64,000 bases of DNA from Rhizobium binae (lineage in GTDB: Bacteria; Pseudomonadota; Alphaproteobacteria; Rhizobiales; Rhizobiaceae), in contig NZ_CP071604.1 in assembly GCF_017357225.1 (NCBI RefSeq), positions 1,181,001 to 1,245,000 on the forward strand. Reading direction: 5' to 3'. Position 1 is the first letter of the stretch. Every line of letters starts with the position of its first letter. The notes beneath the pieces are model-generated. The model ran no database searches, had not been told where the DNA came from, and saw only the letters and a list, made by a program, of their open reading frames with translations. This document shows, piece after piece, positions 2,151 to 25,304 of this stretch. Position numbers and translations under genes: made by a program.

Positions 2151-2421
2151 GCGCGTTTTGCCAAATCCGGCGTCGGCGCGAGGTGGAGGAATCTGACACG
2201 AGAAGGCTCGATTTCGAACCGGCGGGAGAGGCGTAATCAGTTCTTGATCACCCCCCAGCGGATCAGTTATCACTACCGTAAATCCAAACTGCGAAATTTG
2301 AATCCGGAGCTGATGTCGGCGGTCAAGTCGGCGCGGCTCTTCGAACTTGTGCGCTGTTCGCAGCGCCTTGCGAACGAGTCAGCGTGTCAGCGCCCGCTCA
2401 TTTGCCAAGGAGCCTACCCCT

Positions 2422-2852: not shown

Positions 2853-2869
2853 GCGTCAGACGCCAACCG

Positions 2870-7144: not shown

Positions 7145-7307
7145 CGGCCGGCATTACACTTCCAAAGCCAGGCTGCGCTCCGCCTACCGGGCAGCCGGCG
7201 TGGTCGAGATCGGCAATGAGAAGCCGCAGCCGATCGAAAAGCCGAAGACGGACCGGAAGGCGATCCGCAACGAATTGCGGCGGGTCTACGCCGAGCACAA
7301 CGCCTGA
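6996..7307 (+). CDS. Small cysteine/histidine-rich phage protein
   Basis: A 103-residue protein starting at ATG 6996, entirely within the portal gene for its first half but in another frame. Its N-terminus, RYCRVCGGWHALDAWPHNC, has a C-x2-C pair followed by H and C residues that could bind zinc. The rest is basic with an IRNELRRVYAEHNA end. A conserved head-module protein is likely, as the frame keeps good codon use in the overlap. Function unknown. Confidence 0.65.
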   Translation: MRERYCRVCGGWHALDAWPHNCMPVKNLAQSDLPAPHFVSDTIDIQSMHDGRHYTSKARLRSAYRAAGVVEIGNEKPQPIEKPKTDRKAIRNELRRVYAEHNA

Positions 7308-7405
7308 TTCATGTCGCCCGGAAGTGTGCAGCGGTTCGGGGATAACGACAGGCACGAAACAAAGACCTCAGTGGGCATCAATCCCCGACAAAGGAAATTC
7401 CTGAT

Positions 7406-8452: not shown

Positions 8453-8476
8453 TCAAAGGCCAAGTCTGATCAAAGG
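8443..8476 (+). repeat. 17-bp perfect tandem duplication between scaffold and capsid genes
   Basis: The sequence ccaagtctgatcaaagg occurs at 8443-8459 and again at 8460-8476. The first copy contains the scaffold stop codon; the second supplies the AAAGG ribosome binding site of the capsid gene. Confidence 0.9.
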
Positions 8477-8484
8477 AATGATCG

Positions 8485-9459: not shown

Positions 9460-9481
9460 TCGAACGAAAGGATCAACTCCA

Positions 9482-10267
9482 ATGACCATCGCAATTTCCC
9501 AGACCGATCGTCTTGGCGCGAACCCGTTCGTCGTCGAAGGCCCGATCGTCGCCGGATCCGGTATCCCCGGTCCGAACTTCGCCCTCGGCGCGGTAGCCGG
9601 CGGCGACCGTGAATCCGAATGGGTCTACTGCCAGCTGGTGCTCGCAGCGCAGACGACCCTGCAGCCCGGTCAATGGTTCCAGTGGACCCGGGATTATGTC
9701 GCTTCGCTGTTGACCACGGCCGCCGCCGTCGTCGGCCAGCGCTGCGGCGTCTTCTCCGGCGCCGCCCAGCCGCCGACGCTGACCGGCGGCCCGGTCGGCG
9801 CCATCACGCTTCAACCCGGCACCTATTACATCTGGCTGCAGCGCAACGGCCAGGCGCCGGCCCAGGTGGCGACCGCAACGGCGGCCCTCGTCGTCGCCGA
9901 AACCACCACCACCGCGGGCCAGGCAAGTGCGCCTGCCTCGGCGACCGTCGGCACCAAGGCGATCGCCAACGTCAACTTTGCCGCCGCCAACCAGACGTTT
10001 ACCGCAACGACGGTCAACGGCTCCAACCTGCTGACGAACCTCTCCGGCCTCAATGCCGGCTCCGGCCCGTTCATCGGCGCGGCCGTCGCCGGCACCGGTA
10101 TCCCAGGCGGCACGACGATTGCGGGCATCACCTACAGCCCGAATGGCGTCGCCCAGAGCATCACGCTCTCGGCCAATGCCACCGCCAACGGCACGGGCGT
10201 CACTATCACCGCGACCGGTGTTCTCGAGGCGACGCTGATGCGGCCGTTTCTGTCGAAGGTGAACTAA
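9482..10267 (+). CDS. Probable head decoration or head fibre protein
   Basis: A 261-residue protein 22 bases after the capsid gene. The N-terminal half is a compact beta-rich segment (FVVEGPIVAGSGIPGPNFALG, shortened here: FVVEGPIVAGSG). After an Ala/Thr linker comes an Ig-like beta module with IGAAVAGTGIPGGTTIAGI and SITLSANATANGTGV. Such add-on domains are common on capsid decorations and fibres. I do not recognise a named family; the role is inferred from position. Confidence 0.5.
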   Translation: MTIAISQTDRLGANPFVVEGPIVAGSGIPGPNFALGAVAGGDRESEWVYCQLVLAAQTTLQPGQWFQWTRDYVASLLTTAAAVVGQRCGVFSGAAQPPTLTGGPVGAITLQPGTYYIWLQRNGQAPAQVATATAALVVAETTTTAGQASAPASATVGTKAIANVNFAAANQTFTATTVNGSNLLTNLSGLNAGSGPFIGAAVAGTGIPGGTTIAGITYSPNGVAQSITLSANATANGTGVTITATGVLEATLMRPFLSKVN

Positions 10268-10302
10268 ACCACAGCAATCAACTGACTTCTTCGTGTGCGG
10301 TG

Positions 10303-10445
10303 TGCCCCTCATCCGCCTGCCGGCACCTTCTCCCCGCTTGTGCGGGGCGAAGGGGATATGCGGCAACCTCTCCGTTCCCCTCGGACCTATCGTGGGGCAC
10401 GTCCCCTCTCCCCGCGAGCGGGGAGAGGGCTAGGGTGGGGGGCAG
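10303..10445. repeat. Rhizobial intergenic repeat (type B) inside the phage structural operon
   Basis: Left part cccctcatccgcctgccgg with ccttctccccgcttg, right part gtcccctctccccgcgagc and gggagagggctagggtgg. The arms are mutually complementary and can fold. The same module lies at 52905-53045 between betB and betA. It fills the gap between two phage head genes. Confidence 0.8.
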
Positions 10446-10501
10446 CCATCCGCACGACATCGCTCATCCCACATCCCCGCCATCAACAGCGAGCAAACAC
10501 C

Positions 10502-11062
10502 ATGCCTGACAGCAACACCGGAATTTATGCCTCCTTCAGCCTCGAGCCGGTCGAACAGACCTTTCTGACCGAGAAGGAGGGCCGGCCGATCTTTGCCGAC
10601 AAGGAATTCGTCCGCATCTTCATCGCCGGCGACAAGCACACCGAGGTCTATCGCGAGGTGACCGACAACGACAAACAACGTTTTGCCGATGCCTATAAGC
10701 GGTGCAAGGAGGGCGCCGCCGCCCGCGAGCAGCTGACCGGCACGCCGCTGGCGCAATGGCCCTATCTGAAGCCCAGCCAGATCAAGGAGCTGGAGGCGAT
10801 CAACATCTATACGGTCGAGCAGCTCGCCGCGCTTTCCGATACGGCCAAGCAGAAGGTCGGCATGGGCGCCAACGAGCTCACCGCCGCCGCCCGCGCCTAT
10901 CTCGCGAGCGCCGAGAACTCCAGTGCGGCCTCGGCCTTTGCCGCTGAAAACGAGCGGCTGAAGGGTGAGGTCAGCCGGCTGCAGGAGCAGATGAAGGAAA
11001 TGGCCCTGCGCTTCGAGGCGCTCGAGAACGAAAGCCAGAAGTCCCGCGGACGCGCGGCCTGA
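10502..11062 (+). CDS. Phage protein with C-terminal coiled coil
   Basis: A 186-residue protein in the head-tail region. It starts at ATG 10502 after the type B repeat. The N-terminal half includes EKEGRPIFADKEFVRIFIAGD and KPSQIKELEAINIYTVEQLAALSD, the latter a helix-hairpin-like segment; the last about 45 residues (AENERLKGEVSRLQEQMKEM) are a clear heptad coiled coil. It is a conserved type of gene in rhizobial short-tailed phages as I recall. No function can be assigned. Confidence 0.6.
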   Translation: MPDSNTGIYASFSLEPVEQTFLTEKEGRPIFADKEFVRIFIAGDKHTEVYREVTDNDKQRFADAYKRCKEGAAAREQLTGTPLAQWPYLKPSQIKELEAINIYTVEQLAALSDTAKQKVGMGANELTAAARAYLASAENSSAASAFAAENERLKGEVSRLQEQMKEMALRFEALENESQKSRGRAA

Positions 11063-11097
11063 ACCAGCCCGCCAGTCACTTGAACGGAGATCCCCGC

Positions 11098-11802
11098 ATG
11101 TCGCTCCTGACCATCATTCAGAACGTCTGCGCGGAGATCGACCTCGATCCGCCGACGGCCGTCATGTCTTCGGCGGATCCGCAGATCATGCAGCTGCGCA
11201 TCCTCTCCACCCGCGCCGGCCGCGGCCTGATGCGAGCCCACGACTGGTCGGCGCTGATGGTGCGGCGGCAATTCGCAGCGACGGGTGTTGCCCCCGAGCC
11301 GGCCGAGCCGCCTTCCGACTGGGATCGCTTCGCGGCAAATGGGCGGCTCTGGAATGCCTCGCGCCTCTGGGCGCTGAACGGCCCTGTCGAGCCGCAGGCC
11401 TGGCAGCGCCATACGATCCCCAATTCCAACCCGGTGCCGCAGATCTGGCGGATGGCCGGCGGCAAGCTCGACATTTATCCGAACGTTGCCGGCGAGACGA
11501 TGGAATATGCCTATATCTCCGGCTTCTGGGTGACGGTGAATGGCGGCGCCAGCAACGCCGGCAACTGGGCCAACGACACCGATACGGCCCGCTTTCCCGA
11601 AGAGCTGCTCGAACTCTCGCTGATCTGGCGCTGGAAGCGGGCCAAGGGCCTCGATTATGGCGAGGAGCTCGCCAGTTTCGAGCGATCCAAGGAAGCCGCG
11701 ATCGGCGCCGATCGTGCTGCGGGCGCTGTCGACCTTTCGTTGCCGGCGAGGGGAGAGGCGCCCGAAAATTATTGGCCCGGCACGATCACGGTGGCGCCAT
11801 GA
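11098..11802 (+). CDS. Head-tail adaptor protein
   Basis: A 234-residue protein likely forming the ring below the portal. GGAGAT precedes ATG 11098. Features are the short helical N-terminus (MSLLTIIQNVCAEIDLDPP), the RGLMRAHDWSALM motif often seen in short-tail adaptors, and the conserved end segment FPEELLELSLIWRWKRAKG and YGEELASFERSKEAAI. It overlaps the following nozzle-like gene by four bases (ATGA), as paired adaptor and nozzle genes often do. The call is from pattern and gene order. Confidence 0.65.
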   Translation: MSLLTIIQNVCAEIDLDPPTAVMSSADPQIMQLRILSTRAGRGLMRAHDWSALMVRRQFAATGVAPEPAEPPSDWDRFAANGRLWNASRLWALNGPVEPQAWQRHTIPNSNPVPQIWRMAGGKLDIYPNVAGETMEYAYISGFWVTVNGGASNAGNWANDTDTARFPEELLELSLIWRWKRAKGLDYGEELASFERSKEAAIGADRAAGAVDLSLPARGEAPENYWPGTITVAP

Positions 11803-13622
11803 CCCGCAGACCTGTTCCCCCGAACGGCCGCACCCGCCGCGTTTCGCCAGGCAAAGACTGGATCGCGCCGATCGGCGGCTGGCGAACCGACGTCGAGATG
11901 GCCGATATGCCCGAAGATGCGGCCTTCCAGCTCGACAATTTCTTTCCCGAGGCAAACCGCGTGCGCGCCCGCTACGGTTTTCTCGCCTTTTCCACCGGTC
12001 TCGGCGCCGACGTGCAGACGGTCATTCCCTATTCCGGCGTTTCCAACAGGCTGTTTGCCGCCGCCGGCGACAAGATATTCGACGTCACGGTGGGCGGTGC
12101 TGCCGGCGCGCCCGTCGTCTCGGGCCTGGCGAGCGCCCACTGGTCGGTGCAGCAATATACCAACCCGGCCGGCCAGGAATTCCTGCGCCTGGTCAACGGC
12201 CTCGACACGCCGCTGATCTTTAACGGCACCTCCTGGACGAACAATTTCCTGGTCGGCACGGCAGCCCTCGCCACCCAGAATGTCGCCGTGCGCAACACGG
12301 CCTATACGCTGAGTTTCTTCGGCACCGGCTCGGTGACGCTTTCCGGCGCCTTCGCCGGCACGCTGAACGGCACCGGCGCCGGCAACCGGGTGTCGCTCAC
12401 CTTTACGCCGGCGGCCGGCACGCTCACCGTCACCGTGACGGGAACGGTCAGCAATGCCCAGCTGGAAAAGGGCGTGGCCGCCACGCCCTATGTCGCCTCG
12501 ACGATGATCACAGGCATATCCGACGCCTCGCTGCTTGCCGCCGTCACCGCCTATCGCTCGCGCCTGTGGTTCATCGAGAAGAATTCGACCAATGTCTGGT
12601 ATCTCGCCACCGACGCCGTCAGCGGCGCCGCCACCGTTCTGCCGGTCGGCGGCAACATGAAATATGGCGGCACGCTGGTGGCGATCAATGTCTGGACGAT
12701 CCCGGTTGCGGCCGGCCTGCAGCAGTGCCTGGTGCTGATCTCCTCGGAGGGCGAGGTGATCGTCTTCCAGGGATCCGACCCGTCGAGCGCTTCGAACTGG
12801 GGCCTGATCGGCACCTTCAAGCTCGGCCGGCCGCTTGGGCTCGACCGCTGTCTGCTGTCGGTCGGCGCCGATCTGGCGATCATGACGACCGACGGCATCG
12901 TGCCGATCACCAAGGCCGTGCAGCTCGATCGCGGCGCCACCAGCCTCGGGGCGATTACAGCAAGGATCGCCCCGACCTGGCGCGAGACGGTGGCGGCGGC
13001 CGGCACAAGCTCTGGGGAGTGGCAGCTTTCGAGCTTCCCGGCCAGGCAGATGGCGATCGTCAACCTGCCGTCCTCCTTCGGCCCCTATCAATATGTGATG
13101 AACACCGAAACCGGCGCCTGGTGCCGCTTCGTCGGCATGCCCGCCTCCTGCTGGGCGACTTGGCAGGACCGGCTGTTCTTTGGCGCCGCCGACGGCACGC
13201 TTTACGAAGCGGAAGTCGGGGCGAACGACAATGGCGCGGCGATCGACGCGCTGATGGTCGGCGCCTGGAGCCGCTTCGGCGACGGGCTCTCGACCAAGCT
13301 GTCGAAACTGATCGGGGTGACGGCCGAGATCGGCGTGTCGACGCTGATGTATGGCGGCATCTCGGTCGACTATCAGACGAAAGTGCCGACAGCGCTTCTG
13401 TCGTCGGTCGAGAACAATGCGGCGGCGAAATGGGGAACGGCGATCTGGGGAGTTTCGAAATTCCCCGGCATTTCGCTGGTGCGCAAATTCGCCTCCGCCG
13501 GCGGCGCCGGTTCGGCGCTTGCGCCCACCATCCGGGCGCTGATCTCGGGCTCGTCAGGCACCGTCTCGGAAGCCGCCGTTGTCGGCGGTTCGCTGCTTTA
13601 CGAGAGGGGCGCGCCGATTTGA
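11799..13622 (+). CDS. Tail nozzle / DNA-stabilisation-like protein
   Basis: A 607-residue protein after the adaptor, where T7-type tail tubular protein B or P22 gp10 would be. The N-terminus contains WIAPIGGWRTDVEMADMPEDAAFQLDNFFPE, a known opening of such proteins (quoted in part: DAAFQLDNFFPE). Repeated beta-rich stretches suggest a propeller. Residues about 170-225 read as an inserted jelly-roll-like module (YTLSFFGTGSVTLSG to LEKGVAATPY). The stop overlaps the TTG start of the next gene. Confidence 0.6.
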   Translation: MTRRPVPPNGRTRRVSPGKDWIAPIGGWRTDVEMADMPEDAAFQLDNFFPEANRVRARYGFLAFSTGLGADVQTVIPYSGVSNRLFAAAGDKIFDVTVGGAAGAPVVSGLASAHWSVQQYTNPAGQEFLRLVNGLDTPLIFNGTSWTNNFLVGTAALATQNVAVRNTAYTLSFFGTGSVTLSGAFAGTLNGTGAGNRVSLTFTPAAGTLTVTVTGTVSNAQLEKGVAATPYVASTMITGISDASLLAAVTAYRSRLWFIEKNSTNVWYLATDAVSGAATVLPVGGNMKYGGTLVAINVWTIPVAAGLQQCLVLISSEGEVIVFQGSDPSSASNWGLIGTFKLGRPLGLDRCLLSVGADLAIMTTDGIVPITKAVQLDRGATSLGAITARIAPTWRETVAAAGTSSGEWQLSSFPARQMAIVNLPSSFGPYQYVMNTETGAWCRFVGMPASCWATWQDRLFFGAADGTLYEAEVGANDNGAAIDALMVGAWSRFGDGLSTKLSKLIGVTAEIGVSTLMYGGISVDYQTKVPTALLSSVENNAAAKWGTAIWGVSKFPGISLVRKFASAGGAGSALAPTIRALISGSSGTVSEAAVVGGSLLYERGAPI

Positions 13623-14035
13623 TCGTCTGCGAACCCAGTGCCGAGATCGCCGCCTGGGTCGGCGCCAGGATCGGCGTCACCTTCCATCCGCCCTACACCA
13701 CGCTTGCCCATGTCGATCGCGGCCGGATCATCGCCGGCTTCGTCTTCAACGTCTGGACCGGGCACGATATCGAGATCTCGCTCGCCGCCGACCGGCTGTC
13801 GCTGACGCTGATGCGGGCGGTGTTCGACTATGTCGTCAACCAGCTTGGCTGCCGCCGCGCCACCTGCCGCACCCGCGCCGACAACAGCCCCGCCCAGAGG
13901 CTGCTCGCCAGAGTGGGCGCCGAGCCGGAGGGCCGCCAGCGCGGCTATTTCGGCGATTGCGACGGCCTGCTTTACGGAATCATCAAAGAGGATTTTCCCT
14001 ATGGTCTCCACGCCAAAGGCCCCGAAGGCGCCTGA
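13619..14035 (+). CDS. Phage GNAT-like acetyltransferase
   Basis: A 138-residue protein starting at TTG 13619, whose start overlaps the nozzle stop (TTGA). The layout fits the GNAT fold: FVFNVWTGHDIEISLAA beta strand, RLSLTLMRAVFDYV helix, CRRATCRTRADNSPAQRLLARVG (the N-x-x-A-Q-R-L segment is the usual coenzyme A-binding helix region) and the final GYFGDCDGLLYGI strand. Such small GNATs are frequent between tail genes in alphaproteobacterial phages. Its target is unknown. Confidence 0.6.
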   Translation: MIVCEPSAEIAAWVGARIGVTFHPPYTTLAHVDRGRIIAGFVFNVWTGHDIEISLAADRLSLTLMRAVFDYVVNQLGCRRATCRTRADNSPAQRLLARVGAEPEGRQRGYFGDCDGLLYGIIKEDFPYGLHAKGPEGA

Positions 14036-15005
14036 TCCGACCCAGACCGCAGCGGCGCAGACGGCCACCAATGTCGACACCGCCATTGCCAATGCCGGCT
14101 TGAGCCACACCAACCAGTACACGCCGGATGGTTCGTTGGAATACAAGGTCACCGGCTACCAGACGATGAAGGACCAGAACGGCAAGAGCTACCAGCTGCC
14201 GACCTATTCGGCCTATCAGAGCTATTCGCCGGAGAACCAGGCGATCTACGACCAGACGCAACAGACGCAGCTTGGCCTCGCCAGGCTCGCCAGCGATCAG
14301 ACCGGCAAGATCTCCGGCATCCTCGGAACCAATATCGATCTCAGCGCCGGCAATGTCGACAAATATGTCAACGATCACTGGCGCTCCGGCTTCGACAACC
14401 AGTGGGACCGCGACCAGGCGAGCCTCGAGCAGAGCCTGGCCGACAAGGGCATCGCGATGGGCTCGGAGGCCTACGACAACGCCATGCGGGATTTTTCCAC
14501 CCGCAAGCAGGCCGCATCCGACCAGTATCTCGGCGACATGTATTCGAATGCGCAAAACTCGATCCTGACCGAGCGCAACCAGCCGCTGAACGAGATTTCG
14601 GCGCTGATGTCGGGCTCGCAGGTGCATCAGCCGAACTATGTCAATACGCCGACGACTGAGCTGCCGACCGTCGACCAGGCCGGGCTGATCAACGAGAACT
14701 TCAATCAGAAGATGGGCCTCTACAACCAGCAGCTTGCCCAGTCGAACGCCGCGATGGGCGGCCTCTTCGGCCTTGGCGGAACACTGCTTGGCGGCTGGGC
14801 AAAGTCCGACCGGCGACTGAAGGAAGACATCAGCCGCGTCGGCACGCTTGATAACGGCCTGCCCATCTACGCCTTCCGGTACAAGGCGGGCGGCCCCATG
14901 CAGCTCGGCCTGATGTCCGACGATGTGCGCAAGACCCATCCGGACGCCGTGTTCGAACACGCCGACGGCTTCGACCGCGTCGACTACGAAAGGGCAGTGG
15001 CATGA
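14001..15005 (+). CDS. Tail protein with C-terminal S74-type chaperone-like segment
   Basis: A 334-residue protein starting at ATG 14001, overlapping the GNAT gene by 35 bases. The middle is helical and glutamine/asparagine-rich (DQTQQTQLGLARLASDQTG). The end has a small hydrophobic glycine stretch (MGGLFGLGGTLLGGW) then KSDRRLKEDISRVGTLDNG and YAFRYKAGG, the opening of the peptidase S74 intramolecular chaperone domain of fibres. That segment is cut short at about 65 residues, so full self-cleavage is doubtful. It may be an internal or tail-tip protein. Confidence 0.6.
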   Translation: MVSTPKAPKAPDPTQTAAAQTATNVDTAIANAGLSHTNQYTPDGSLEYKVTGYQTMKDQNGKSYQLPTYSAYQSYSPENQAIYDQTQQTQLGLARLASDQTGKISGILGTNIDLSAGNVDKYVNDHWRSGFDNQWDRDQASLEQSLADKGIAMGSEAYDNAMRDFSTRKQAASDQYLGDMYSNAQNSILTERNQPLNEISALMSGSQVHQPNYVNTPTTELPTVDQAGLINENFNQKMGLYNQQLAQSNAAMGGLFGLGGTLLGGWAKSDRRLKEDISRVGTLDNGLPIYAFRYKAGGPMQLGLMSDDVRKTHPDAVFEHADGFDRVDYERAVA

Positions 15006-15310
15006 TCCCAACCATCTCAGGCGGCAATACCGGCAGGACACGGGGCGACATCGACGACCAGCGCAAGCGGCTGGCCTACGCCATGCTGCAGCAGGGCATG
15101 GATGCGAGCCCGGTGCAATCAACCTGGCAGGGCGCGGCGCGGCTTGCGCAGGCCTTGATGGGTGGGTTGGCGATCAGGCAGGCGGATCAGGAACAGAAGG
15201 CGGCTGCAACTCAAGCTCCCGCTGTGCCGACGGCCACGCCTTCAACTCCGCCGGCAAGGTCTTCCGGCCTCCTGCCGTCGTTCTCAGGCGGCAAGCGCAC
15301 TGTTGCGTGA
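15002..15310 (+). CDS. Short phage protein, possible remnant of a larger virion protein
   Basis: A 102-residue protein overlapping the previous gene by four bases (ATGA). RKRLAYAMLQQGMDASPVQ and TWQGAARLAQALMGGLAIRQ form a segment that I recall as the N-terminus of much larger internal virion proteins of related phages. Here it is followed only by a Pro/Ala/Thr-rich tail and a stop. Truncation is an inference. Confidence 0.5.
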   Translation: MIPTISGGNTGRTRGDIDDQRKRLAYAMLQQGMDASPVQSTWQGAARLAQALMGGLAIRQADQEQKAAATQAPAVPTATPSTPPARSSGLLPSFSGGKRTVA

Positions 15311-16707: not shown

Positions 16708-18063
16708 ATGCCCAGAAATCCATCAACCGGCATCTATTCCAAGCCCGCCGGCACGACCCCTTCCGTCGGCCAGGTCATCGACCCGGCGCCATGGAACGCG
16801 CTGACCACCGATCTCGGCAACGAAATCACCAACTCGCTGCCGCGCGACGGCTCCGCACCGATGGCCGCGCCGCTCAAGGCCGCAGGCGGCACGGTGTCGG
16901 CGCCGGGCGTCGGCTTCGCCTCGAACCCGCAGAGCGGGATCTATCTCAAGGGCGGCGGAGTGCTGGGTTTCACCCAGAACGGCGTCGACATCACCTTCGA
17001 AAAGGCCTCGGTCTATGCGGCGAAGTCAGGCGATTACGCCGCGCTTGCGTCCGACGACAACGCCGTCCACCGCTTCACCGCGGCCGCTACGCTCAGCCTG
17101 ACAGCAGCGGCAACGCTCGGCGCAAACTGGCACTATTGCGTCATTGCCGATGGCGGCGACGTGACGATCGATCCGAACGGGTCGGAGACAATCGACGGCG
17201 CGGCGACACTTGTCGTCAAGGACGGCTACAGCGTCGAGATCATCTGTTCCGGCGCCGCCTTCTTCACCAACAAGCTCTTCGCCAGGATCCAGAGCAAAGC
17301 GGACAGCGCGGCTGTCGGGGATTTCGTCGTCGGGCTCGTCCTTTCCAATAACGGCGCCAACCCGACCACCCATGTCGATTTTTCCGCCGGCTCCGCCAGA
17401 TCGGGGGCAAGCTTCGTTTCGAGCGCAACGCCATTGACGAAGCGCGTGACGGGAACATTCGCGGCGGGAACGGGCGCCGGCGGCCTCGATGCCGGCGCCG
17501 TCGCTGCAAATGCGACATACTTCGCCTATGCCTTGCGCAAGGACGCCGACCTGTCTTTCGACGTGGTGCTCTCGACCTCGGCAACGATCGCCGGCGTCAC
17601 CACGACGCTGCTCACCGGCTATACCATCGTCAAATGCATCGGCGTGGTGCTGACGGATGCAAGTTCGTTTATCCGCCAGTTCGTCATGTATCCGCGTGAC
17701 GAATACACCTTCGTTACGCCGGCCAAGGACGCGATTAGCGCCGCTATCTCTACGACCTCGGCACTCCTGCCGCTGACAGTGCCGAATGGGGTGAAGGTCA
17801 AGGCGAAGCTGCGGTTTGAACTCACATCGAGCGCGACGACCAATGCTGCACTGATTCATGATCCGGCGCAGGGTATTCTCACTGCTGGCATCTCTGGTGA
17901 TGGCGGCAACTTAGGCGCCGTTCAGGTTGCAGGCAACTATGCCATAGGCAGCCAGGATGTTTGGACGAACACGAGCAAGCAAGTCAGGCAGGTCGCTGGG
18001 GCTGCCGGCAATATCTGGGTGTGGACCGATGGGTTTCATTTCCCATGCGGGAGGAACCCATAG
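16708..18063 (+). CDS. Tail fibre protein
   Basis: A 451-residue fibre. GGAGAA precedes ATG 16708. The N-terminal MPRNPSTGIYSKPAG to VIDPAPWNALTTDLGNEI is the usual virion-attachment start of alphaproteobacterial phage fibres. Then come repeated beta-structured stretches rich in Ala, Thr and Gly. The C-terminal region from about residue 400 (GDGGNLGAVQVAGNYAIGSQ) is probably the receptor-binding end. It precedes the surface-modification genes, as in many converting phages. Confidence 0.75.
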   Translation: MPRNPSTGIYSKPAGTTPSVGQVIDPAPWNALTTDLGNEITNSLPRDGSAPMAAPLKAAGGTVSAPGVGFASNPQSGIYLKGGGVLGFTQNGVDITFEKASVYAAKSGDYAALASDDNAVHRFTAAATLSLTAAATLGANWHYCVIADGGDVTIDPNGSETIDGAATLVVKDGYSVEIICSGAAFFTNKLFARIQSKADSAAVGDFVVGLVLSNNGANPTTHVDFSAGSARSGASFVSSATPLTKRVTGTFAAGTGAGGLDAGAVAANATYFAYALRKDADLSFDVVLSTSATIAGVTTTLLTGYTIVKCIGVVLTDASSFIRQFVMYPRDEYTFVTPAKDAISAAISTTSALLPLTVPNGVKVKAKLRFELTSSATTNAALIHDPAQGILTAGISGDGGNLGAVQVAGNYAIGSQDVWTNTSKQVRQVAGAAGNIWVWTDGFHFPCGRNP

Positions 18064-18193: not shown

Positions 18194-18751
18194 ATGGCAA
18201 CCGATAAAGCATCGTACCGGAATCGTGGAGGAATTCTTCAGCGTCTCGTTACCGCCTACAAGCGATTTCGCTACTTCAGCCGCGCCGGCTCGAACCTGGT
18301 TGTCAAGCGGAGCGCCGAGTTTCGCATGGTGAAGCACGCAGTTCTTGAGGTCGGCAGCAATGTCACGATTCAAGACTATTCATTCTTCCAACTCACGATG
18401 CCTGAGCCGAAGGTGTTTATTGGAAACAACACTGTTATCGGGCGCCGGAACATCATTACTGCCAAGAACCGCATCTCGATTGGCAACGATGTGCTCATCG
18501 GCTCAGATGTTCAGATCATCGATCACAGCCATGGCATGAGGCGAGACGCACTGATCAGGCTTCAGAAGGCTGAAATCGGCTTTGTCGAAATTGGCGATGA
18601 CGTCTGGATTGGTGCAGGTGCCAAAATATTGATGAACGTTACGGTTGGGAAGGGCGCCGTGATCGGAGCGAACTCCGTTGTCACGACCGATATTCCCGAC
18701 TACGGAATCGCTGTGGGCTCGCCGGCGAAAGTTGTTAAATACCGTGCTTAA
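18194..18751 (+). CDS. Left-handed beta-helix (hexapeptide) acetyltransferase
   Basis: A 185-residue O-acetyltransferase of the LbH/NodL-WbbJ type, expected to acetylate a sugar of lipopolysaccharide or capsule with acetyl-CoA. Hexapeptide repeats are visible (IGNNTVIGRRNIIT, IGNDVLIGSDVQI, IGDDVWIGAGAKIL, VGKGAVIGANSVV), with the catalytic histidine region IIDHSHGM and the closing GSPAKVVK. A ribosome binding site GGAGGA precedes ATG 18194. Base composition is lower in GC than the structural genes, suggesting separate acquisition. A decayed relative lies at 21655-21797. Confidence 0.8.
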   Translation: MATDKASYRNRGGILQRLVTAYKRFRYFSRAGSNLVVKRSAEFRMVKHAVLEVGSNVTIQDYSFFQLTMPEPKVFIGNNTVIGRRNIITAKNRISIGNDVLIGSDVQIIDHSHGMRRDALIRLQKAEIGFVEIGDDVWIGAGAKILMNVTVGKGAVIGANSVVTTDIPDYGIAVGSPAKVVKYRA

Positions 18752-18842
18752 TCAGCGGTGATATCTCGTGCCGTGGTGTTGGGGCCGTGCCAATTATTGG
18801 AGACTTCTCCAACGGTGAGCACCTGCGGGATCGTACCGAATG

Positions 18843-19841
18843 CTAGGCACGGTCGCCTATCGCGATCCGATCGCTTTCTTCTGAGACGCGTCTGGACCCT
18901 AACTGCTCCAGCTTTGCCTTAGCCCGGCGCGCGGCGGCATGGCACGGTTTCTCGATCCAACGATAGAACGGATAAACCAGCGCAAGTGAAAGGATGCAGA
19001 CGACGATTGGCGGCGTTACCAACCATTCAACAGCAGTCGCCGCGATGATGTGGACGAGATAAATTGAGAAGCAGGCGGCGCCTATGACTTCGAGCGTCTT
19101 TACGGGGCCTCGGTCTGCCGCATTCCTGATCTCGGCCATGATCCAGCAGCCCGCCAGCGCGGAAAATGGCGTCATGGTCAGGTAGAAGCCAACGGGTGTG
19201 TTCATCGTTGCCCAATAAAGGACGGACGCAATCGCCGCTGTGACAGCGCGCCAGAGCCACACATTGCCGGCGAGTTTCAGGCGGTCGAAATTTTCAGCGA
19301 GATAGCAGCCGATCAGCCAAGCGGGAAGGCCGACAATCCAGTTTAGCAGCGGCCCGTACGACTGGGCATTGCCGTATCGATCCGGGCCTACGCCGATCGC
19401 GACGCCATATGAGGCGATGACCGACGCAGCGATGATCAGCGGCCAACCGATGCGTCGAGCCGCCGGCAGGAACAGCGGATAAAGGCAATAGTAGACCGTC
19501 TCGCAGACGACCGACCATAGTATGAAGCCGTCGATGGGATTGTATGCCCTGATACCCAGTGCTTGCGCCATGAGGAATGCCACCGCGGACGGTGGCACGA
19601 TGCGAAGGAACCGGCCGGCGAGGAACGGGGCGGTTCGAAGCTCCTGCCGCCGGTATGGGTAATGAATGCAGAACCCTGAAATCACGAAGAAGGCGATAAC
19701 GGCGGGGTGCCCCGTGAAGATGTAACGCGAAACGCCAGGCATCGACGGCCCAAGCAAATGCGCAAACACAACAGACAGAGCAGCAACCGCTCTGACGGTA
19801 TCCAAGCCCGCGATTCTATTTGAATGTTGTGATGATCTCAT
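18843..19841 (-). CDS. Acyltransferase-3 family membrane O-acyltransferase (cassette copy 1 cargo)
   Basis: Integral membrane protein likely acylating a surface sugar. The start at ATG 19841 (MRSSQHSNRIAGLDTVRA) is chosen; an ATG 12 codons earlier (19877) is possible. The acyltransferase-3 signature is clear: GLDTVRAVAALSVVFAH, then FFVISGFCIHYPYRR, and about ten hydrophobic helices ending with FYRWIEKPCHAAARR. It lies opposite to the phage operon with its own leader. That leader is repeated upstream of the methyltransferase at 20560-21405. A likely role is lysogenic conversion that changes the receptor. Confidence 0.8.
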   Translation of the reverse strand: MRSSQHSNRIAGLDTVRAVAALSVVFAHLLGPSMPGVSRYIFTGHPAVIAFFVISGFCIHYPYRRQELRTAPFLAGRFLRIVPPSAVAFLMAQALGIRAYNPIDGFILWSVVCETVYYCLYPLFLPAARRIGWPLIIAASVIASYGVAIGVGPDRYGNAQSYGPLLNWIVGLPAWLIGCYLAENFDRLKLAGNVWLWRAVTAAIASVLYWATMNTPVGFYLTMTPFSALAGCWIMAEIRNAADRGPVKTLEVIGAACFSIYLVHIIAATAVEWLVTPPIVVCILSLALVYPFYRWIEKPCHAAARRAKAKLEQLGSRRVSEESDRIAIGDRA

Positions 19842-19913
19842 TTCGCTAACGTAACCGTTAAGCGAAAACTTTAGCAATAGGCAACTATTAGTGTACTTTG
19901 CGGTACCAATATT
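19798..19913. repeat. Leader/promoter region of the acyltransferase, copy 1 of a duplicated 116-bp segment
   Basis: Covers the first codons of the acyltransferase and its upstream DNA. It aligns without gaps in length to 21445-21560: shared blocks include aagcgaaaactttagcaata and cggtacc(a/g)atatt. Confidence 0.8.
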
Positions 19914-19965
19914 AAGCGCTGGCTAGGAAGTCAGTCCACGCACTCCCCACCTCGGAGCCCACCCC

Positions 19966-20220
19966 ATGCTCGTCCATAACTGGCGCGAGGTGCTTAAGCG
20001 CGCCTGGTCAATTCGACTGATGGCCCTCGCGCTCCTCTGCATCGTCCTCGAGCCCGTCATCAATTTCGTCGCCGGCACCTGGATACCTCGCAACGTCTAC
20101 ATGCAGCTCGCCATGTCGGTCATGACCGGCCTGCTCACCGCGGCGGCGATCGTCGCCCGCATCGTCTTCCAACAGCAAGTTTCAGGAGAACTGAATGGCA
20201 AACCGCCTTCAGAGGGGTAG
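19966..20220 (+). CDS. Holin (cassette copy 1, intact)
   Basis: An 84-residue membrane protein predicted to open the inner membrane at lysis. Two helices are visible: IRLMALALLCIVLEPVINFVAG and MQLAMSVMTGLLTAAAIVARIVF, with a charged end. It overlaps the first codons of the endolysin reading frame (ATG 20195), as small-genome lysis genes often do. A decayed second copy lies at 21798-21977. Because the endolysin next to it is broken, it must act with the endolysin at 21952 if lysis occurs. Confidence 0.7.
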   Translation: MLVHNWREVLKRAWSIRLMALALLCIVLEPVINFVAGTWIPRNVYMQLAMSVMTGLLTAAAIVARIVFQQQVSGELNGKPPSEG

Positions 20221-20510
20221 CGCTGCGGCTGCAATGGCCGTGGCGCTCGTCGGCAGCTTCGAAGGGCTGCGGCAGCACGCCTATCCGGATCCGGCCACAC
20301 AGGGGCGATTTGTTACGGCAGCACCAATGGGGTGAAGCCCGGGTATCGCAGGACGGTGGAGCAGTGCAAGGCGCTGCTGGCGTTGGAGCTTCAAGCCTAT
20401 GCGCGCGGCATCGAAAGCTGTGTGCGCGTGCCCTTGCCGGATGCGCGTTTCGTGGCGCTGACCTCGTTCGCCTACAATGTCGGCGTCAGGGTGGCCTGCG
20501 GAATATACAA
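20195..20510 (+). pseudogene. Endolysin pseudogene (cassette copy 1)
   Basis: Nearly identical to the intact endolysin at 21952 for about 300 bases. It lacks 10 bases near 20300 (after ggatccggccaca), which shifts the frame after codon about 36 and gives an early stop. It then loses all similarity after gtggcctgcgg at about 20505, so the 3' third is gone. Confidence 0.85.
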
Positions 20511-20559
20511 ATCCGGTCGGTGGAAAACCGCGCGAGTATTTCGTTTTTCACCTCACAGG

Positions 20560-21405
20560 CTAGAACGATACGCCAATGCCAGCTCCCGGGTACCAGTGAT
20601 CAAGCGGCTTTTCGGAGAAGAAGACGAACTTTCGGCCGCTCTCTCTTGAAAAACGGGAGAGGCTGTCGGTAACATGAGCATTGTCGCCCAAGATGATTGC
20701 TCCGATGGCAAGTTTTTTGGAAATCGTCTGATATTCTTGGTATTCGTACTCTCCACTATGGTCGGAATCATTGACGAACATGTCAATTGGTTCAGCGAAG
20801 GTCGTGAGCGACTGTATTGAGTCGCCATAGAGGATACGCCCCACGGTGGCGTATTCGCCCGTAAACAACGCACCCGCTTCCGGCCTGATTTCTGTTCCGT
20901 AGTAACGGCCGGGATGGCCCTCGGCGGCGTTTCGCAGCAAAGCACTCGCCAGCACACATGATCCAACCCCGTGATCGACCCCTGTTTCGATGAGAACTTT
21001 CGGCTTCTTCACGCGGGCAATGGCATACCAACCAAGGCGTCGACCATACTCGATCTCAATGTCATCGCCATAGCGGCTTTCCTTGAGGTGATTTTCAAGA
21101 TGCAGGCGCAGTGAGGCATCATTCTCCAGTTCGGACATGTAGCCGTCGATCACCTCATATGCTGCACCAGTGATGGTCGAAATGAGATGGATCAGGTGAT
21201 CCCGATTATCCGGAGTCAGCGCATAGTAGAAGTTGGAAACTTCCTTTTCCTTCCATGCCCAACTCCTCGCCGTCTGTACGGCTGGAAGTGTATACGACAG
21301 GGCGATAGCCTTTCGCTTTCCATGGTCTCGAATGATCCTCAGCCTCTTTTTCAATGGCTTGGGAAGAACCCGCAATACGGGCATCAGGAATGCTGGCACA
21401 GGCAT
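20560..21405 (-). CDS. Class I SAM-dependent methyltransferase (cassette copy 2 cargo)
   Basis: A 281-residue protein of the Methyltransf_24 type. ATG 21405 (MPVPAFLMPVLRV) with GGAG nine bases upstream is chosen. The SAM-binding core reads VLIETGVDHGVGSCVLASAL, then GRYYGTEIRPEAG and DMFVNDSDHSGEYEYQEYQ, followed by LAIGAIILGDNAHVTDS. Such enzymes often methylate sugars of surface polysaccharide. The open frame continues upstream for about 100 codons through a remnant of the acyltransferase start (NRIEGLDTV); there the matching start codon is ATA. It is a different cargo in the same position as the acyltransferase. Confidence 0.75.
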   Translation of the reverse strand: MPVPAFLMPVLRVLPKPLKKRLRIIRDHGKRKAIALSYTLPAVQTARSWAWKEKEVSNFYYALTPDNRDHLIHLISTITGAAYEVIDGYMSELENDASLRLHLENHLKESRYGDDIEIEYGRRLGWYAIARVKKPKVLIETGVDHGVGSCVLASALLRNAAEGHPGRYYGTEIRPEAGALFTGEYATVGRILYGDSIQSLTTFAEPIDMFVNDSDHSGEYEYQEYQTISKKLAIGAIILGDNAHVTDSLSRFSRESGRKFVFFSEKPLDHWYPGAGIGVSF

Positions 21406-21444
21406 TAATTTCGCTCCGGCATAAAAACTGCCCCCCGCTCCGAC

Positions 21445-21560
21445 AGTATCAAGGCCTTCGATTCTGTTTGAACACGGAAGTGATCGTATCTCGCGAAGTA
21501 ACCGAGAAGCGAAAACTTTAGCAATAGACAACCGTTGGCGTACCGATCGGTACCGATATT
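21445..21560. repeat. Leader region of the methyltransferase, copy 2 of the duplicated 116-bp segment
   Basis: Matches 19798-19913 at the same length. On the minus strand it still encodes SNRIEGLDTV in the place of the acyltransferase SNRIAGLDTV, showing that an acyltransferase start once lay here. Confidence 0.8.
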
Positions 21561-21654
21561 TTTGTAGCCGTCGACATCGAATCTCTGGAATCGCGACCTC
21601 GTCGCGGCTCCTCATAGAGTTGACGGCAACGGCGCTTAAGTCGAGCGAAGGCGG

Positions 21655-21797
21655 ACATCGGATTGTCGAAAATGGCGATGCCGTCTGGATCGGCGCAGGT
21701 GCCAAATGAGAGGGACCGGCGCCGTGATCGGCGCAAATCCCGTCGTCATGGCCGATATTCCCGGCTATCGGATCGCGGTTGGTTCGCCAGCGCTGAA
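21655..21797 (+). pseudogene. Remnant of a hexapeptide acetyltransferase
   Basis: Short blocks match the intact gene at 18194: gtctggatcggcgcaggtgc (encodes VWIGAG), then gtgatcggcgcaaatcccg and ccgatattcccggctatcgg, ending in ggttcgccagcg (GSPA). A deletion of about 25 bases and a stop (TGA at about 21707) break the frame. It is fused directly to the holin remnant. Confidence 0.8.
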
Positions 21798-21977
21798 GTA
21801 CGCCTGGAGCGTCCGTCTAATGGCGTTGGCGCTCATTTTCATCATCCTCGAGTCTACATCCAGCTCGCCATGTCGATCATGACCGGCCTGCTCACCGCGG
21901 CGGCGATCGTCGCCCGCCTCGTCTTTCAACAGCAAATCTCAGGAGAACTGAATGGCAAACCGCCTTCAGAAGGGTAG
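21798..21977 (+). pseudogene. Holin remnant (cassette copy 2)
   Basis: Starts as tacgcctggagcgtccgtc and matches the intact holin except that about 45 bases between the two membrane helices and the N-terminal 14 codons are missing, which shifts the frame. The second half still reads MSIMTGLLTAAAIVARLVFQ and could in principle start at its own ATG. Confidence 0.75.
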
Positions 21978-22416
21978 CGCTGCGGCTGCAATGGCCGTGG
22001 CGCTCGTCGGCAGCTTCGAGGGGTTGCGGCAGAATGCCTATCCCGATCCGGCCACCAAGGGGCCGCCCTGGACGATTTGTTACGGCAGCACCAATGGGGT
22101 GAAGCCCGGGGATCGCAGGACGGTGGAGCAGTGCAAGACGCTGCTGGCGCTGGAGCTTCAGGCCTATGCGCGCGGCATCGAAAGCTGTGTCCGCGTGCCC
22201 TTGCCGGATGCGCGTTTCGTGGCGCTGACCTCGTTTGCCTATAATGTCGGCGTCAGGGCGGCCTGCGGCTCGAGCGCGGTCAGGCTCATCAACCAGGGCA
22301 GGACGGCCGAGGGCTGCGAGGCGCTGCTCAAGTGGAACCGTGCGGCCGGCATCATCTTTCCCGGGCTGACGCGGCGCCGGCAGAAAGAGCGGCAATTCTG
22401 CCTGGAGGGCATCTGA
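21952..22416 (+). CDS. Endolysin, GH24 lysozyme with SAR-like N-terminus (intact copy)
   Basis: A 154-residue muramidase. AGGAG precedes ATG 21952. The catalytic glutamate is in GSFEGLRQNAYPD, with the following C and T of WTICYGSTNG completing the E-C/D-T pattern of phage lysozymes, and the conserved ALTSFAYNVGV. The N-terminal stretch SAAAAMAVALVGS is weakly hydrophobic, as in signal-arrest-release endolysins. It overlaps the i-spanin start by one base. This is the only complete endolysin of the two copies. Confidence 0.85.
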   Translation: MANRLQKGSAAAAMAVALVGSFEGLRQNAYPDPATKGPPWTICYGSTNGVKPGDRRTVEQCKTLLALELQAYARGIESCVRVPLPDARFVALTSFAYNVGVRAACGSSAVRLINQGRTAEGCEALLKWNRAAGIIFPGLTRRRQKERQFCLEGI

Positions 22417-22778
22417 TGTTCTCCCTGCTCGACACGCTCAAGATGGGCGCCGGCATCGCCGCCGGGTTGGTGCTCTATCACCTCTATGCCGTTTCGATCG
22501 GCTATCCCTCGGCGGCCCGGCAGGCGCGCGCCGGCTATGTGATGCTGGCCGAGAAGACAGCGGCCGAGGCGCGGGCGGCCGAGATGGAGCGCCAGCGCAA
22601 TGCGGCCTCGCTCGCCACCGAAGAGCACCGCAAGCGCCTTCTGGCCGCGGAGGTGGCCGAGCAGGCGGCCAGAGACACATTGGAAAACGAGATCCGATCC
22701 TATGAACTCGAGCTTTCGCGAGAGAACCGCGCTTGCGCTGTCACTGCTGCTGATCGTCAGTGGCTGCTCCGCCACTGA
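22416..22778 (+). CDS. Inner-membrane spanin (Rz-like)
   Basis: A 120-residue protein with one N-terminal membrane helix (MGAGIAAGLVLYHLYAVSI) and a long charged coiled coil (EKTAAEARAAEMERQRNAAS, RKRLLAAEVAEQAARDTLEN). Its position after the endolysin and the lipoprotein gene nested in its 3' end identify it as the i-spanin. ATG 22416 overlaps the endolysin stop TGA. Confidence 0.8.
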   Translation: MFSLLDTLKMGAGIAAGLVLYHLYAVSIGYPSAARQARAGYVMLAEKTAAEARAAEMERQRNAASLATEEHRKRLLAAEVAEQAARDTLENEIRSYELELSRENRACAVTAADRQWLLRH

Positions 22779-23010
22779 GCGCCTGAACCAGGCGGCGGTT
22801 GCCAAGGGGAGGGCGGCGGCCGGCCTCGTGCTGCCGCCGCTGCCCGACGATTTGAGACGGCAGGAAGCGCATGCGCCTGTCCTCGAAGGCGAGCCGCTGA
22901 TCGCAATCCTTGCCCGTGAGCGCCAGGCGCTCGACCGCGCCAATGCCCGCCAGGGGCGCACCGTCGAATTCTACGACGACCTCACCAGCCGATACGGAAG
23001 ACGCCGATGA
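22702..23010 (+). CDS. Outer-membrane spanin lipoprotein (Rz1-like)
   Basis: A 102-residue lipoprotein starting at ATG 22702 inside the i-spanin gene in another frame (77-base overlap). The signal peptide ends in the lipobox LLIVSGCS; the mature part has the Pro-rich LVLPPLPDDLRRQ typical of o-spanins. With the i-spanin it would join inner and outer membranes to finish lysis. Confidence 0.8.
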   Translation: MNSSFRERTALALSLLLIVSGCSATERLNQAAVAKGRAAAGLVLPPLPDDLRRQEAHAPVLEGEPLIAILARERQALDRANARQGRTVEFYDDLTSRYGRRR

Positions 23011-24863
23011 TGAACGCCATTTCGATTGCCCTTGCCAATCCGCTGCTGAAAGGTGGGGACGGCAGCGCCGGAGATCCCGACCGCTACATGTTCTTCGCCA
23101 CCCGCAACCGCATGCCGTCGGGCGCGATCGTCACCGCCGCCTCCGGCACGAACTATGTCTGCACCAAGATCGTCGTCAACACGCCGCAATATAAGACGCG
23201 GACCTTCCGCTTCCATCTCTCCGGCTTCGCCTCGACCGAGGGCGGAAATTCGCCGCAGGAAACCGTCGTTACCGGCGCGATCGGCACGCCGGGCAATTCG
23301 GTCATCGCCGATGCCATGTTCATCCGCGTCGCCGGCGTCTTCCACCAATGCAGCTTCGCCGGCTCGAACACCGTGACGGTCGCCGACCAGACGAACGGCG
23401 CCTGGACGGACGAACTGACCATTCCCGATGTCGCGCCGGAAAGCGAAATCGAAATTTGGCTGTTTTATCACACCGCCGTCGGCGACAAGATCTGGCCGGT
23501 CTACCGCATCCAGAAGCATCGCGGCGAACGCGTCTGGGGTGCCGGCGATCTCGATACGCTGCTTGCCTTCAAGGATAGCCCGCTCGCCGACAGCACCGCC
23601 GCCCTCGATACGAGCTATGGCCAGCAGGCGCAGCCGCAATATTGGGGCGCCGATTTCATGGTCGCCAAGGGCGATTGGGACGGAAGACCGGTCGCCCTCG
23701 GCTTCGTCGACAGCATCGGCGAGGCGCGCCAGGAATATTCTTCCGCCGCCGATGCCCGCGGCAATCTCGGCTGGTTGCGCCGCTGGCTCGACAAGGACGG
23801 CGGCACCGGGAGAATTCCGCATTGCCTGGTCGGCATGCCGGGCGCCGGATCGCTGCGCGAATACACCGGATCCGGGTCGTCCATCGCAACCCGGAGAAGG
23901 GATATCATTCGCGAGATCAAGGCGTTCAACGGCAACAAGCTGCCCTTCACCGTCATCGCCAACCAGATGGGGCAGAACGATACATCGACATCCTACAGCA
24001 CCTGGTTCAACAGCAATTACCGCGGCCTGGTCGGGCGACTGCGCACGGAATATGCGGGCGTCAGGTTCGTGGCCTTCCCGCCACTCGGCCGCACGACGAT
24101 CACGCGCAACGTTACGCTCACATCCGTTGGCACCGTCGCAACGGCGACCATCGCAAGCGGCCTCAACGGTCTTGTGACGGGGCAGACCGTCAGTATTTCA
24201 AACGCAACGCCGACGGCTTACAACGGGAACTATGTGATCACCGTCACCGGTGCCAATAGCTTCACCTACGAATTCTCAGGCGGCACGTCGCCGGCAACCG
24301 GATCCATTACCTGCAACGATCTCGGCTTGCGGGCCGAATATCAGGTCTATGGCGCCAACAACAGCTGGCCGGCGGACGGCACGGACGCTTCGGGCAAATG
24401 GCGGCTGCACGATGATATCATGGCGCAGACATCGGCCTGCTGCGATGCGGCGATCGATACCTACGGCGCCTGGGTGTCGCCGTCGAGGGGTGGCGTCTGG
24501 CCTGGCATGCTGGAGCTTCCGAGCACCATGTTGACCGCTCAGGCCGGAACGGATGGTGTGACCACCTACAATACGATCGTCGTCGCCGATGCCAGCCTCT
24601 TCAGGCCGGAGCAGACGCTGCATATATATTCGGGTCCGGAGGGCGTCGCTCGCCTCAGCACCCAGGTCGTCGGCAGCATCGCCGGCAACGTCATCACCTA
24701 TCAGGGGGCGAGCGCCGCCATCCTGCCGGTTGGCTCGGTGGTGCGGCCGGCGCCGTCGGTCGGAGAGCTTTCGCCGGTGTCCTTCATCCATCCGCAGGCG
24801 ATCATGATCGACCGCATCGCCGACGGCATTGCGCAATCCGAAAAGCTGAAATTCAATTCATGA
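23007..24863 (+). CDS. Tailspike-like protein with SGNH/GDSL-type esterase domain
   Basis: A 618-residue protein after the lysis genes. Residues about 225-350 carry an SGNH hydrolase pattern: GFVDSIGEARQ (candidate nucleophile Ser236), a later GMPGAG, and IANQMGQND (block III). A candidate histidine is in FIHPQ near residue 595. Between them, residues about 368-437, lies an Ig-like beta module (TIASGLNGLVTGQTVSISN, FTYEFSGG) that looks inserted. Virion-borne SGNH domains often deacetylate surface polysaccharide. ATG 23007 overlaps the spanin stop (ATGA). An ATG one codon later is possible. Confidence 0.6.
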   Translation: MMNAISIALANPLLKGGDGSAGDPDRYMFFATRNRMPSGAIVTAASGTNYVCTKIVVNTPQYKTRTFRFHLSGFASTEGGNSPQETVVTGAIGTPGNSVIADAMFIRVAGVFHQCSFAGSNTVTVADQTNGAWTDELTIPDVAPESEIEIWLFYHTAVGDKIWPVYRIQKHRGERVWGAGDLDTLLAFKDSPLADSTAALDTSYGQQAQPQYWGADFMVAKGDWDGRPVALGFVDSIGEARQEYSSAADARGNLGWLRRWLDKDGGTGRIPHCLVGMPGAGSLREYTGSGSSIATRRRDIIREIKAFNGNKLPFTVIANQMGQNDTSTSYSTWFNSNYRGLVGRLRTEYAGVRFVAFPPLGRTTITRNVTLTSVGTVATATIASGLNGLVTGQTVSISNATPTAYNGNYVITVTGANSFTYEFSGGTSPATGSITCNDLGLRAEYQVYGANNSWPADGTDASGKWRLHDDIMAQTSACCDAAIDTYGAWVSPSRGGVWPGMLELPSTMLTAQAGTDGVTTYNTIVVADASLFRPEQTLHIYSGPEGVARLSTQVVGSIAGNVITYQGASAAILPVGSVVRPAPSVGELSPVSFIHPQAIMIDRIADGIAQSEKLKFNS

Positions 24864-24875
24864 CAGGGTGCCGAT

Positions 24876-25304
24876 ATGACATCGAATGACGATATCCTGC
24901 GCGCTCTCGGGCGCGTGGAGGGCCGCCTGACCGGCATCGAGGAAAACGTCGCGCTGCTGCGCCAGGAGATGGGTGACGAAAAGGCCAATGCCCATGATTC
25001 CAGGGTGGTGATCCACAAGCGCCTTGACGAGCAGGCAAGGCAGATCGCCCGTCTCGATACGAAAGTGGCGATCAGCGGCGGCGCCGATGCGCAGATCCGC
25101 GCCGAGATCGGAACGCTCAAGGAAACCGTCGAGAGGAACCAGGAGACGGTCGGCCCGGCGCTCGAGGAGTGGAAACGGATGAAATCGATCGGCTACGGCA
25201 TTTCAGGGCTGATCGCCTTTGCCGGGCTGACGACCGGCGGGATCGTTGCCTATGCCAGCGACGGCGCCGTGGCGGCGTTCAGGCATTGGTTGAAGATCAG
25301 TTGA
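24876..25304 (+). CDS. DUF1515-like membrane-anchored coiled-coil protein
   Basis: A 142-residue protein: a long N-terminal coiled coil (GRVEGRLTGIEENVALLRQE, then VVIHKRLDEQARQIARLD), followed by EEWKRMKSIGYGISGLIAF and one membrane helix. This is the layout of the rhizobial DUF1515 family. It is the last gene of the prophage and may take part in lysis or adsorption; function unknown. Confidence 0.65.
   Translation: MTSNDDILRALGRVEGRLTGIEENVALLRQEMGDEKANAHDSRVVIHKRLDEQARQIARLDTKVAISGGADAQIRAEIGTLKETVERNQETVGPALEEWKRMKSIGYGISGLIAFAGLTTGGIVAYASDGAVAAFRHWLKIS

Follow-up and report, generated by a model that had tools for sequence, protein, structure and literature searches.

Serotype-converting temperate phages of the P22 and Shigella Sf type carry acyltransferases or other glycan enzymes that modify the O-antigen of their hosts (PMC3851460). 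In rhizobia, an abundant family of Mx8/Pr-type podoviral prophages is concentrated in Rhizobium leguminosarum (PMC10386132), and another temperate family has its own 5-kb variable region (PMC8631192). Here we describe a phage-derived locus in a 64,000-nucleotide stretch of Rhizobium binae (assembly GCF_017357225.1, contig NZ_CP071604.1, positions 1,181,001 to 1,245,000; this whole stretch is referred to as the window). We judge it probable, as a single reading, that the locus is a stranded, largely vertically inherited cluster of podovirus late genes, fixed between a dienelactone-hydrolase (DLH) gene and degP across a large Rhizobium clade, and that a slot between its tail-fibre and holin-endolysin genes takes up polysaccharide-modification genes.

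The locus resembles serotype-converting phages in its phage-borne acyltransferase and glycan enzymes, with a surface role predicted from protein families, but differs in its lack of a recognisable integrase or repressor, in the position of the slot and in the stacking of modules with truncated lysins (PMC3851460). Its capsid matches that of Mx8 at 52%, while a fixed degP locus, host-like inheritance and a cargo slot are not described in the available part of the report on Mx8/Pr-type prophages (PMC10386132). Gene transfer agents (GTAs) of the RcGTA type likewise consist of head-tail genes without phage early genes that evolve with the host (PMC9662315), whereas the capsid here is not matched by their family PF05065. 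“Grounded” prophages are also immobile and gather genes (PMC6379469); here they gather in a single slot whose borders are defined and whose content has one prevailing functional theme. In Escherichia coli, exchange involving defective prophages used lysis genes as homology, and most mosaics with a homology trace show it on one side (PMC3945230), but segments are replaced there, while here modules accumulate and the old holin is left behind. A search of titles and abstract openings, with most subscription journals outside its coverage, found no description of the degP-site cluster, its inheritance or its slot.

A variable gene slot between tail-fibre and lysis genes

The window endolysin was searched in 148 genomes of the genus, one per species and its own included, and matched in 65. 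The compared set comprised 40 loci in 34 other genomes, whose endolysins, complete or fragmented, reach 82% identity or more; a locus in G099 (70%), short fragments at 47-62% and anything at or below 52% were excluded. In 33 loci, the window included, the endolysin lies at a single chromosomal site beside degP, which accounts for 33 of the 35 genomes with a close endolysin. All within-species statements are carried by IMG/VR contigs.

On its left the slot is bordered by a tail-fibre gene (16708..18063, plus strand; PHROG tail fiber, E 5.6e-8), which serves as anchor in 29 of the 33 site loci, and on its right by endolysin 2, with close relatives, whole or broken, in all 40 other compared loci. 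Between these borders the 29 anchored site loci hold 24 cargo line-ups, the empty one included. The original prediction of a modular locus with cargo swapped between conserved borders thus expected the right kind of variation, and exchange beside the lysis genes holds; the short “leader” repeat it had proposed as the other border does not, as set out below.

An enzyme of a surface-glycan (polysaccharide-type) family is present in 26 of the 29 anchored loci. Where the window has Acyl_transf_3, Hexapep and methyltransferase genes, its relatives carry hexapeptide acetyltransferases, several acyltransferase-3 families, class I and PEMT-type methyltransferases, or a whole operon of a DegT aminotransferase, a methyltransferase, WbqC, a glycosyltransferase of family 2, a TylF-type methyltransferase and an FAD oxidoreductase; many further cargo genes have no Pfam match. 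As expected of phage morons, the cargo sits between conserved genes and occurs in some relatives and not in others. Among 63 tail-fibre-anchored IMG/VR loci, a set in which the cluster is mixed with other phages and some strains occur again, there were 41 line-ups, with such an enzyme in 36. Cargo differed in 47 of 48 listed locus pairs whose structural stretches were 94.0-99.2% identical, and was the same in eight of nine pairs at 99.9% or above (in the ninth, which differs, one locus is cut); these pairs overlap and are not independent, and contig ends cut some loci.

Cargo does travel, since that of G065 is 92.8% identical to the cargo of the distant G107 while the flanks are only about 82% identical. 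A close endolysin (88%) is also present in two Rhizobium etli phage records, and a gene for a putative acetylesterase or acyltransferase ends no more than about 0.7 kb upstream of it. In 67 of 77 loci, duplicates and cargo-free loci having been removed, tail-fibre type and cargo showed a rank Mantel correlation of 0.34 (p 0.001); holding the tail-fibre N-terminus constant lowered it to 0.11 (p 0.025), no more than a hint of coupling. Judging by these broad protein families, the cargo may reshape the bacterial surface.

Other variation was seen next to the tail fibre. Seven loci (L042, L047, L050, L058, L065, L070 and L071) carry a conserved cassette of about five minus-strand genes upstream of it, between virion genes and tail fibre where both are visible. 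In L051, L056 and L068 the complete tail-fibre gene is preceded by N-terminal fragments, which suggests that the tail fibre itself may be swapped by a similar stacking.

Two modules in the window and stacking in related loci

In the window the slot is occupied by two modules, one of them partly decayed. Module 1 runs from an intact hexapeptide acetyltransferase (18194..18751, plus strand; Pfam Hexapep, E 2.8e-15) through an acyltransferase-3 of O-acetyltransferase type (18843..19877, minus strand, real start probably near 19841 by alignment; Pfam Acyl_transf_3, E 6.6e-26; PHROG O-acetyltransferase) to an intact holin 1 (19966..20220, plus strand), so named from a single PHROG match (E 3.5e-7) plus Pfam DUF7940, and a frameshifted endolysin 1 (20195..20501, plus strand), whose match stops near codon 106. 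There follows a 933-bp stretch (20502..21434) with a counterpart, among the compared loci, only in the near-identical strain VL252. It holds the S-adenosylmethionine (SAM) methyltransferase of module 2 (20560..21405, minus strand; Pfam Methyltransf_24, E 6.2e-17), which is 97% identical to a protein named from R. leguminosarum bv. viciae WSM1455. At E 1e-20 this methyltransferase was found in one of the 148 genomes, its own, and it was dismissed as a genus-wide cargo. The rest of module 2 consists of a minus-strand remnant (21437..21640) with an acyltransferase 5' end lacking its ATG, the region upstream and an intergenic stretch; the 3' end of a hexapeptide gene (21647..21792, plus strand; 75% identical to 18565-18727); holin 2 with an internal deletion (21788..21977, plus strand); and an intact endolysin 2 (21952..22416, plus strand; Phage_lysozyme, E 7.8e-39).

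Much of what had been noticed in the single sequence was borne out: the two unrelated inverted cargos, the repeated acetyltransferase and the holin-endolysin pair present twice at 92-95% identity (20095-20306 versus 21852-22063, 93%; 20303-20501 versus 22070-22268, 95%; 92.3% over a gapped alignment of 417 columns). Surviving parts are indeed split between the copies, endolysin 1 being frameshifted and holin 2 internally deleted. The two genes left intact, holin 1 and endolysin 2, could form one working pair.

The 116-bp “leader” (copy 1 at 19798..19913, minus strand), by contrast, had been misread. Its repetition is real and beyond chance (21435-21560 versus 19787-19913, 75.6%, E ~1e-18), but the repeat spans roughly 17 codons at the acyltransferase 5' end together with the DNA before them, and at the probable start position copy 2 has no ATG, unlike the other usable alignment rows (row G070 left out). 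In a BLASTN search of the 40 related loci and the window, it fell at the start of an acyltransferase-3 gene in 11 related loci and in window copy 1, and elsewhere as the copy 2 remnant and a 63-bp fragment in L073; it occurs, that is, with acyltransferase genes or their remnants. We therefore rejected it as a border, as it is part of one cargo gene. Nor was there support for its driving the inverted genes, the promoter scan being at chance level (two found versus 2.2 expected); a terminator scan gave five versus 3.7 expected.

This repeat also bears on how the second module arose. Its copy 2 is 86-87% identical to G010, G036 and G065 and 76% to copy 1. Module 1 is arranged as acetyltransferase, acyltransferase, holin, truncated lysin, and module 2 as in G010, G036 and G065, namely acyltransferase, acetyltransferase, holin, lysin. 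Module 2 thus appears to descend from the reverse-order version of other species, with the methyltransferase in place of the acyltransferase body.

Similar stacking recurs in relatives. An extra holin or lysin piece is present in 11 of the 33 site loci, and eight loci (G000, G008, G009, G013, G014, G019, G032 and G065) are stacked in one way: old cargo, holin, 3'-truncated lysin, new cargo and a second lysis pair. The second holin is full-length in seven of these eight and decayed in the window; in G019 the first holin is a divergent allele. Lysin breakpoints lie near codons 17 (G009, G013), 24 (G065), 35, 46, 53 and 106, and at codon 23 in G032, which has its cargo in common with G065; such scatter argues against a site-specific recombinase. 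G065 is 96.9% identical to the unstacked G010 over 2,628 nt, through the tail-fibre end, cargo, holin 1 and 24 lysin codons, after which comes a 1,741-bp insert and then 90.4% identity from the second holin; the corresponding values for G019 and G017 are 95.8% and 91.2%. In four of five pairs the first half of the later lysin is less alike than its second half, as a crossover inside the lysin would leave. Holin divergence, given below, weakly suggests that each second lysis pair came from outside. One locus, L064 (G006), has the opposite polarity: its endolysin and the next gene recur downstream, and it is the second endolysin that lacks its 5' part.

A plausible route is that incoming phage DNA recombines on its right by homology in the lysis genes, a one-sided homology, while the left joint is illegitimate and falls inside the old lysin. 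Each arrival would add cargo and a lysis pair and leave the old holin behind. In the window, a reverse-order module would have entered after endolysin codon ~106; its acyltransferase body would then have been replaced by the methyltransferase, and its acetyltransferase and holin may have decayed, perhaps because module 1 supplies both. The cargo would alter the O-antigen or another surface glycan and so change phage adsorption or recognition.

A late-gene cluster at the degP site

The cluster extends over 22.7 kb and comprises late genes of an Mx8-type podovirus; P22 is a podovirus as well. The parts of the cluster described here are on the plus strand, save for the inverted cargo. The morphogenesis block (2616..15310), whose order is kept at the same site in related genomes, includes genes assigned through PHROGs to the small terminase (2870-3340), large terminase (3306-4877), portal (4877-7144), major capsid (8485-9459), a tail protein (11098-11802), an amidase-like protein (11799-13622) and a virion protein (14001-15005). 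Beyond the slot lie a conserved gene (22416..22778), Rz-like by position alone and without a match in Pfam or PHROG, a lysophospholipase L1-like (SGNH) esterase (23007..24863; PHROG, E 1e-118) and a final gene (24876..25304) kept in most related loci. Three 54-bp direct repeats, 70-100% alike, occur at the degP 3' end (26588-26750).

No integrase, repressor or replication gene was recognised at 2616-26179 (PHROGs for called genes, Pfam for those scanned), whereas a serotype-converting prophage has an integrase and a repressor, and direct repeats between the cluster ends, sought as attachment sites, were no longer than 11 bp. Tailocins are not known to have capsid, portal or terminase genes; all of these are present here. 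The cluster does have what is expected of a GTA, a head-tail set without early genes that is inherited with the host, though its core recombines internally; its capsid is not matched by the RcGTA-type family PF05065, and the two PF05065 matches of the genome sit elsewhere, at 2.13 and 2.76 Mb. Of 30 assessable loci (three of the 33 site loci run into contig edges), 20 keep all 11 structural genes at close to full length, and in two further loci the capsid gene alone is interrupted. That gene is split at codon 67: in G002, the only insert checked, the intervening sequence (L080:9870-10154) resembles the group I intron family RF00028 (43.9 bits, E 2.4e-9, under the gathering score of 50). The interruption is also seen in G032, and L239-L245 match the capsid only from residue 67.

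At the site, degP lies downstream and the DLH gene is visible upstream in 29 of 33 loci, the contig ending first in the other four. In G008, where the degP match is partial and weak, the site is marked by the next gene (LacI, 90%) and DLH. Nine further genomes were checked around degP, G134 alone being examined among those with degP identity at or below 82%; seven retain cluster fragments, and G146 and G134 have none. Eight of the 41 endolysin loci sit away from the site. Two of these eight, G001b and G076b, were read as translations, and they show serine recombinase or tyrosine integrase-like genes left of the terminase as well as repressor-, helicase- or primase-like ones. A capsid scan of named genomes (21 loci) places the family in R. 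croatiense, R. bangladeshense, R. aethiopicum, R. esperanzae, R. phaseoli, R. leguminosarum, R. johnstonii, R. ruizarguesonis and others.

The structural genes broadly follow the host. Across 21 genomes, a six-gene structural tree shares 10 of 18 splits with a tree of the unlinked rpoB and gyrB, against a mean of 0.29 and a maximum of two with shuffled labels. The flanking degP and DLH share 12 of 16, the endolysin 8 of 17, the gene after it 7 of 18, the last gene 6 of 14, the tail fibre 1 of 13 and the hexapeptide gene 0 of 10. Relative to rpoB and gyrB, median synonymous divergence (dS) is 0.93-1.5 for the six structural genes, 1.3 for degP, 2.2 for DLH, 2.1 for the endolysin, 2.6 for the tail fibre and 4.5 for the hexapeptide gene. 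In a separate dS comparison, stops occurred in 15 of 26 alignments of the portal, one of degP and one of the acyltransferase, and the codons concerned were skipped. For four structural genes dS rank-correlates with that of the host at 0.44-0.65, and the ratio of non-synonymous to synonymous divergence (dN/dS) is 0.025 for the capsid and 0.10-0.19 for the remaining five structural genes tested. GTAs, too, evolve under purifying selection. Particle genes thus pass roughly with the host under purifying selection, while tail fibre and hexapeptide gene are traded.

Upstream of the late genes lies a conserved non-coding block (2236..2310, plus strand), a candidate control array. It occurs as 72 copies in 34 loci, one to three per locus and often about 370 bp apart, and by reading carries a TGATC-N11-GATCA dyad. 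With five candidates per genome scored, it was present in 40 of the 148 genomes, at one place in the window genome, and none of the matches listed fell near the eight off-site endolysin loci. An RNA fold of the block had no support (z -0.34). No known RNA family reached its gathering score in the window, and weak miRNA- and snoRNA-like matches were dismissed as not credible in a bacterium. Palindromic repeats of the CATCCCAGGGCTTGACCCGAGGATCC type lie between the block and the first late gene (2418-2533).

Alternative readings and significance

The second module could have arisen in place, through tandem duplication of the resident cassette or lysis pair, reciprocal decay of the copies and capture of the methyltransferase, much as the original prediction had it. 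The window holin-endolysin copies are indeed closer to each other (92.3%) than to the best other locus (90.9%), and the two holins of G014 are 87.1% alike, above either compared with G083; on its own, such identity between lysis genes is also compatible with gene conversion, or with a donor drawn from one common gene pool. The differing gene order of the window modules and the affinity of the second “leader” copy to other species speak against a simple duplication, as does G009, whose holins are 83.0% alike yet 90.6 and 88.8% identical to those of its relative G068. We regard this origin as unlikely. It is very unlikely that ordinary converting prophages repeatedly integrated at an attachment site near degP, so that the position would mirror site preference and not inheritance. 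Relatives in G001 and G076 do sit at other sites with recombinase or integrase and repressor- or primase-like genes, by reading of translations, and the tail-fibre and acetyltransferase trees depart from that of the host; against this stand the lack of a recognised integrase, repressor or replication gene in the window cluster and of direct repeats above 11 bp between its ends, the splits and dS that structural genes share with unlinked host genes, and the cluster fragments kept around degP in seven of nine further genomes. Relaxed storage in a dead prophage, in which any passing gene is tolerated and the surface bias mirrors phage gene content, would suit the damaged loci, the cargo genes without Pfam match and the other kinds of minus-strand cassette in the region. 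It seems improbable given the low dN/dS of the structural genes and the 20 of 30 assessable loci in which all 11 are close to full length.

A stranded, largely vertically inherited cluster with a cargo slot remains the reading we favour, and several observations weigh against it. Two of the 29 anchored loci have no cargo called, the cargo families from which surface action is predicted are broad, structural genes are damaged in 8 of the 30 assessable loci, and the endolysin is broken in 4 of 33. Of 17 supported splits, 7 are in conflict between one half of the structural core and the other, and dS of the capsid and one virion gene tracks the host weakly (rho 0.33 and 0.31), from which it follows that the core recombines too. 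As to import, the lysin halves of G065 and G010 are reversed (94.8 then 91.3%), and in G009/G068 and G032/G034 the second stretch is overall about as alike as the first. Compared with the unstacked relative, identities of holin 1 and holin 2 are 86.6 and 81.7% in G065, 90.6 and 88.8% in G009, 94.6 and 92.9% in G032, and 83.9 and 83.0% in G014; holin 1 is always closer, yet by 1-5 points only, and that of G065 has diverged too. In G009 and G065 holin 1 is closer to its counterpart in the relative than to the second holin of its own genome, and in G014 the reverse holds. Clean resident and foreign holin alleles, as a proof of import, were not borne out by these identities.

A bolder reading, which we consider doubtful, is that the degP cluster is a live, host-owned particle, either an Mx8-type GTA or a capsid-bearing killer particle. 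It would be regulated by the host through the upstream tandem non-coding blocks, and the tail fibre and surface slot would be traded so that producers escape their own particles and target kin with other surfaces.

Rhizobial surface glycans matter in legume infection and in phage sensitivity. If the favoured reading is true, the fixed slot would be one place to look for surface differences between strains in a large share of the genus. Stacking, with the lysin cut at various codons, would be a readable record of gene addition to a resident prophage, and the cluster a candidate domesticated particle outside the RcGTA lineage.

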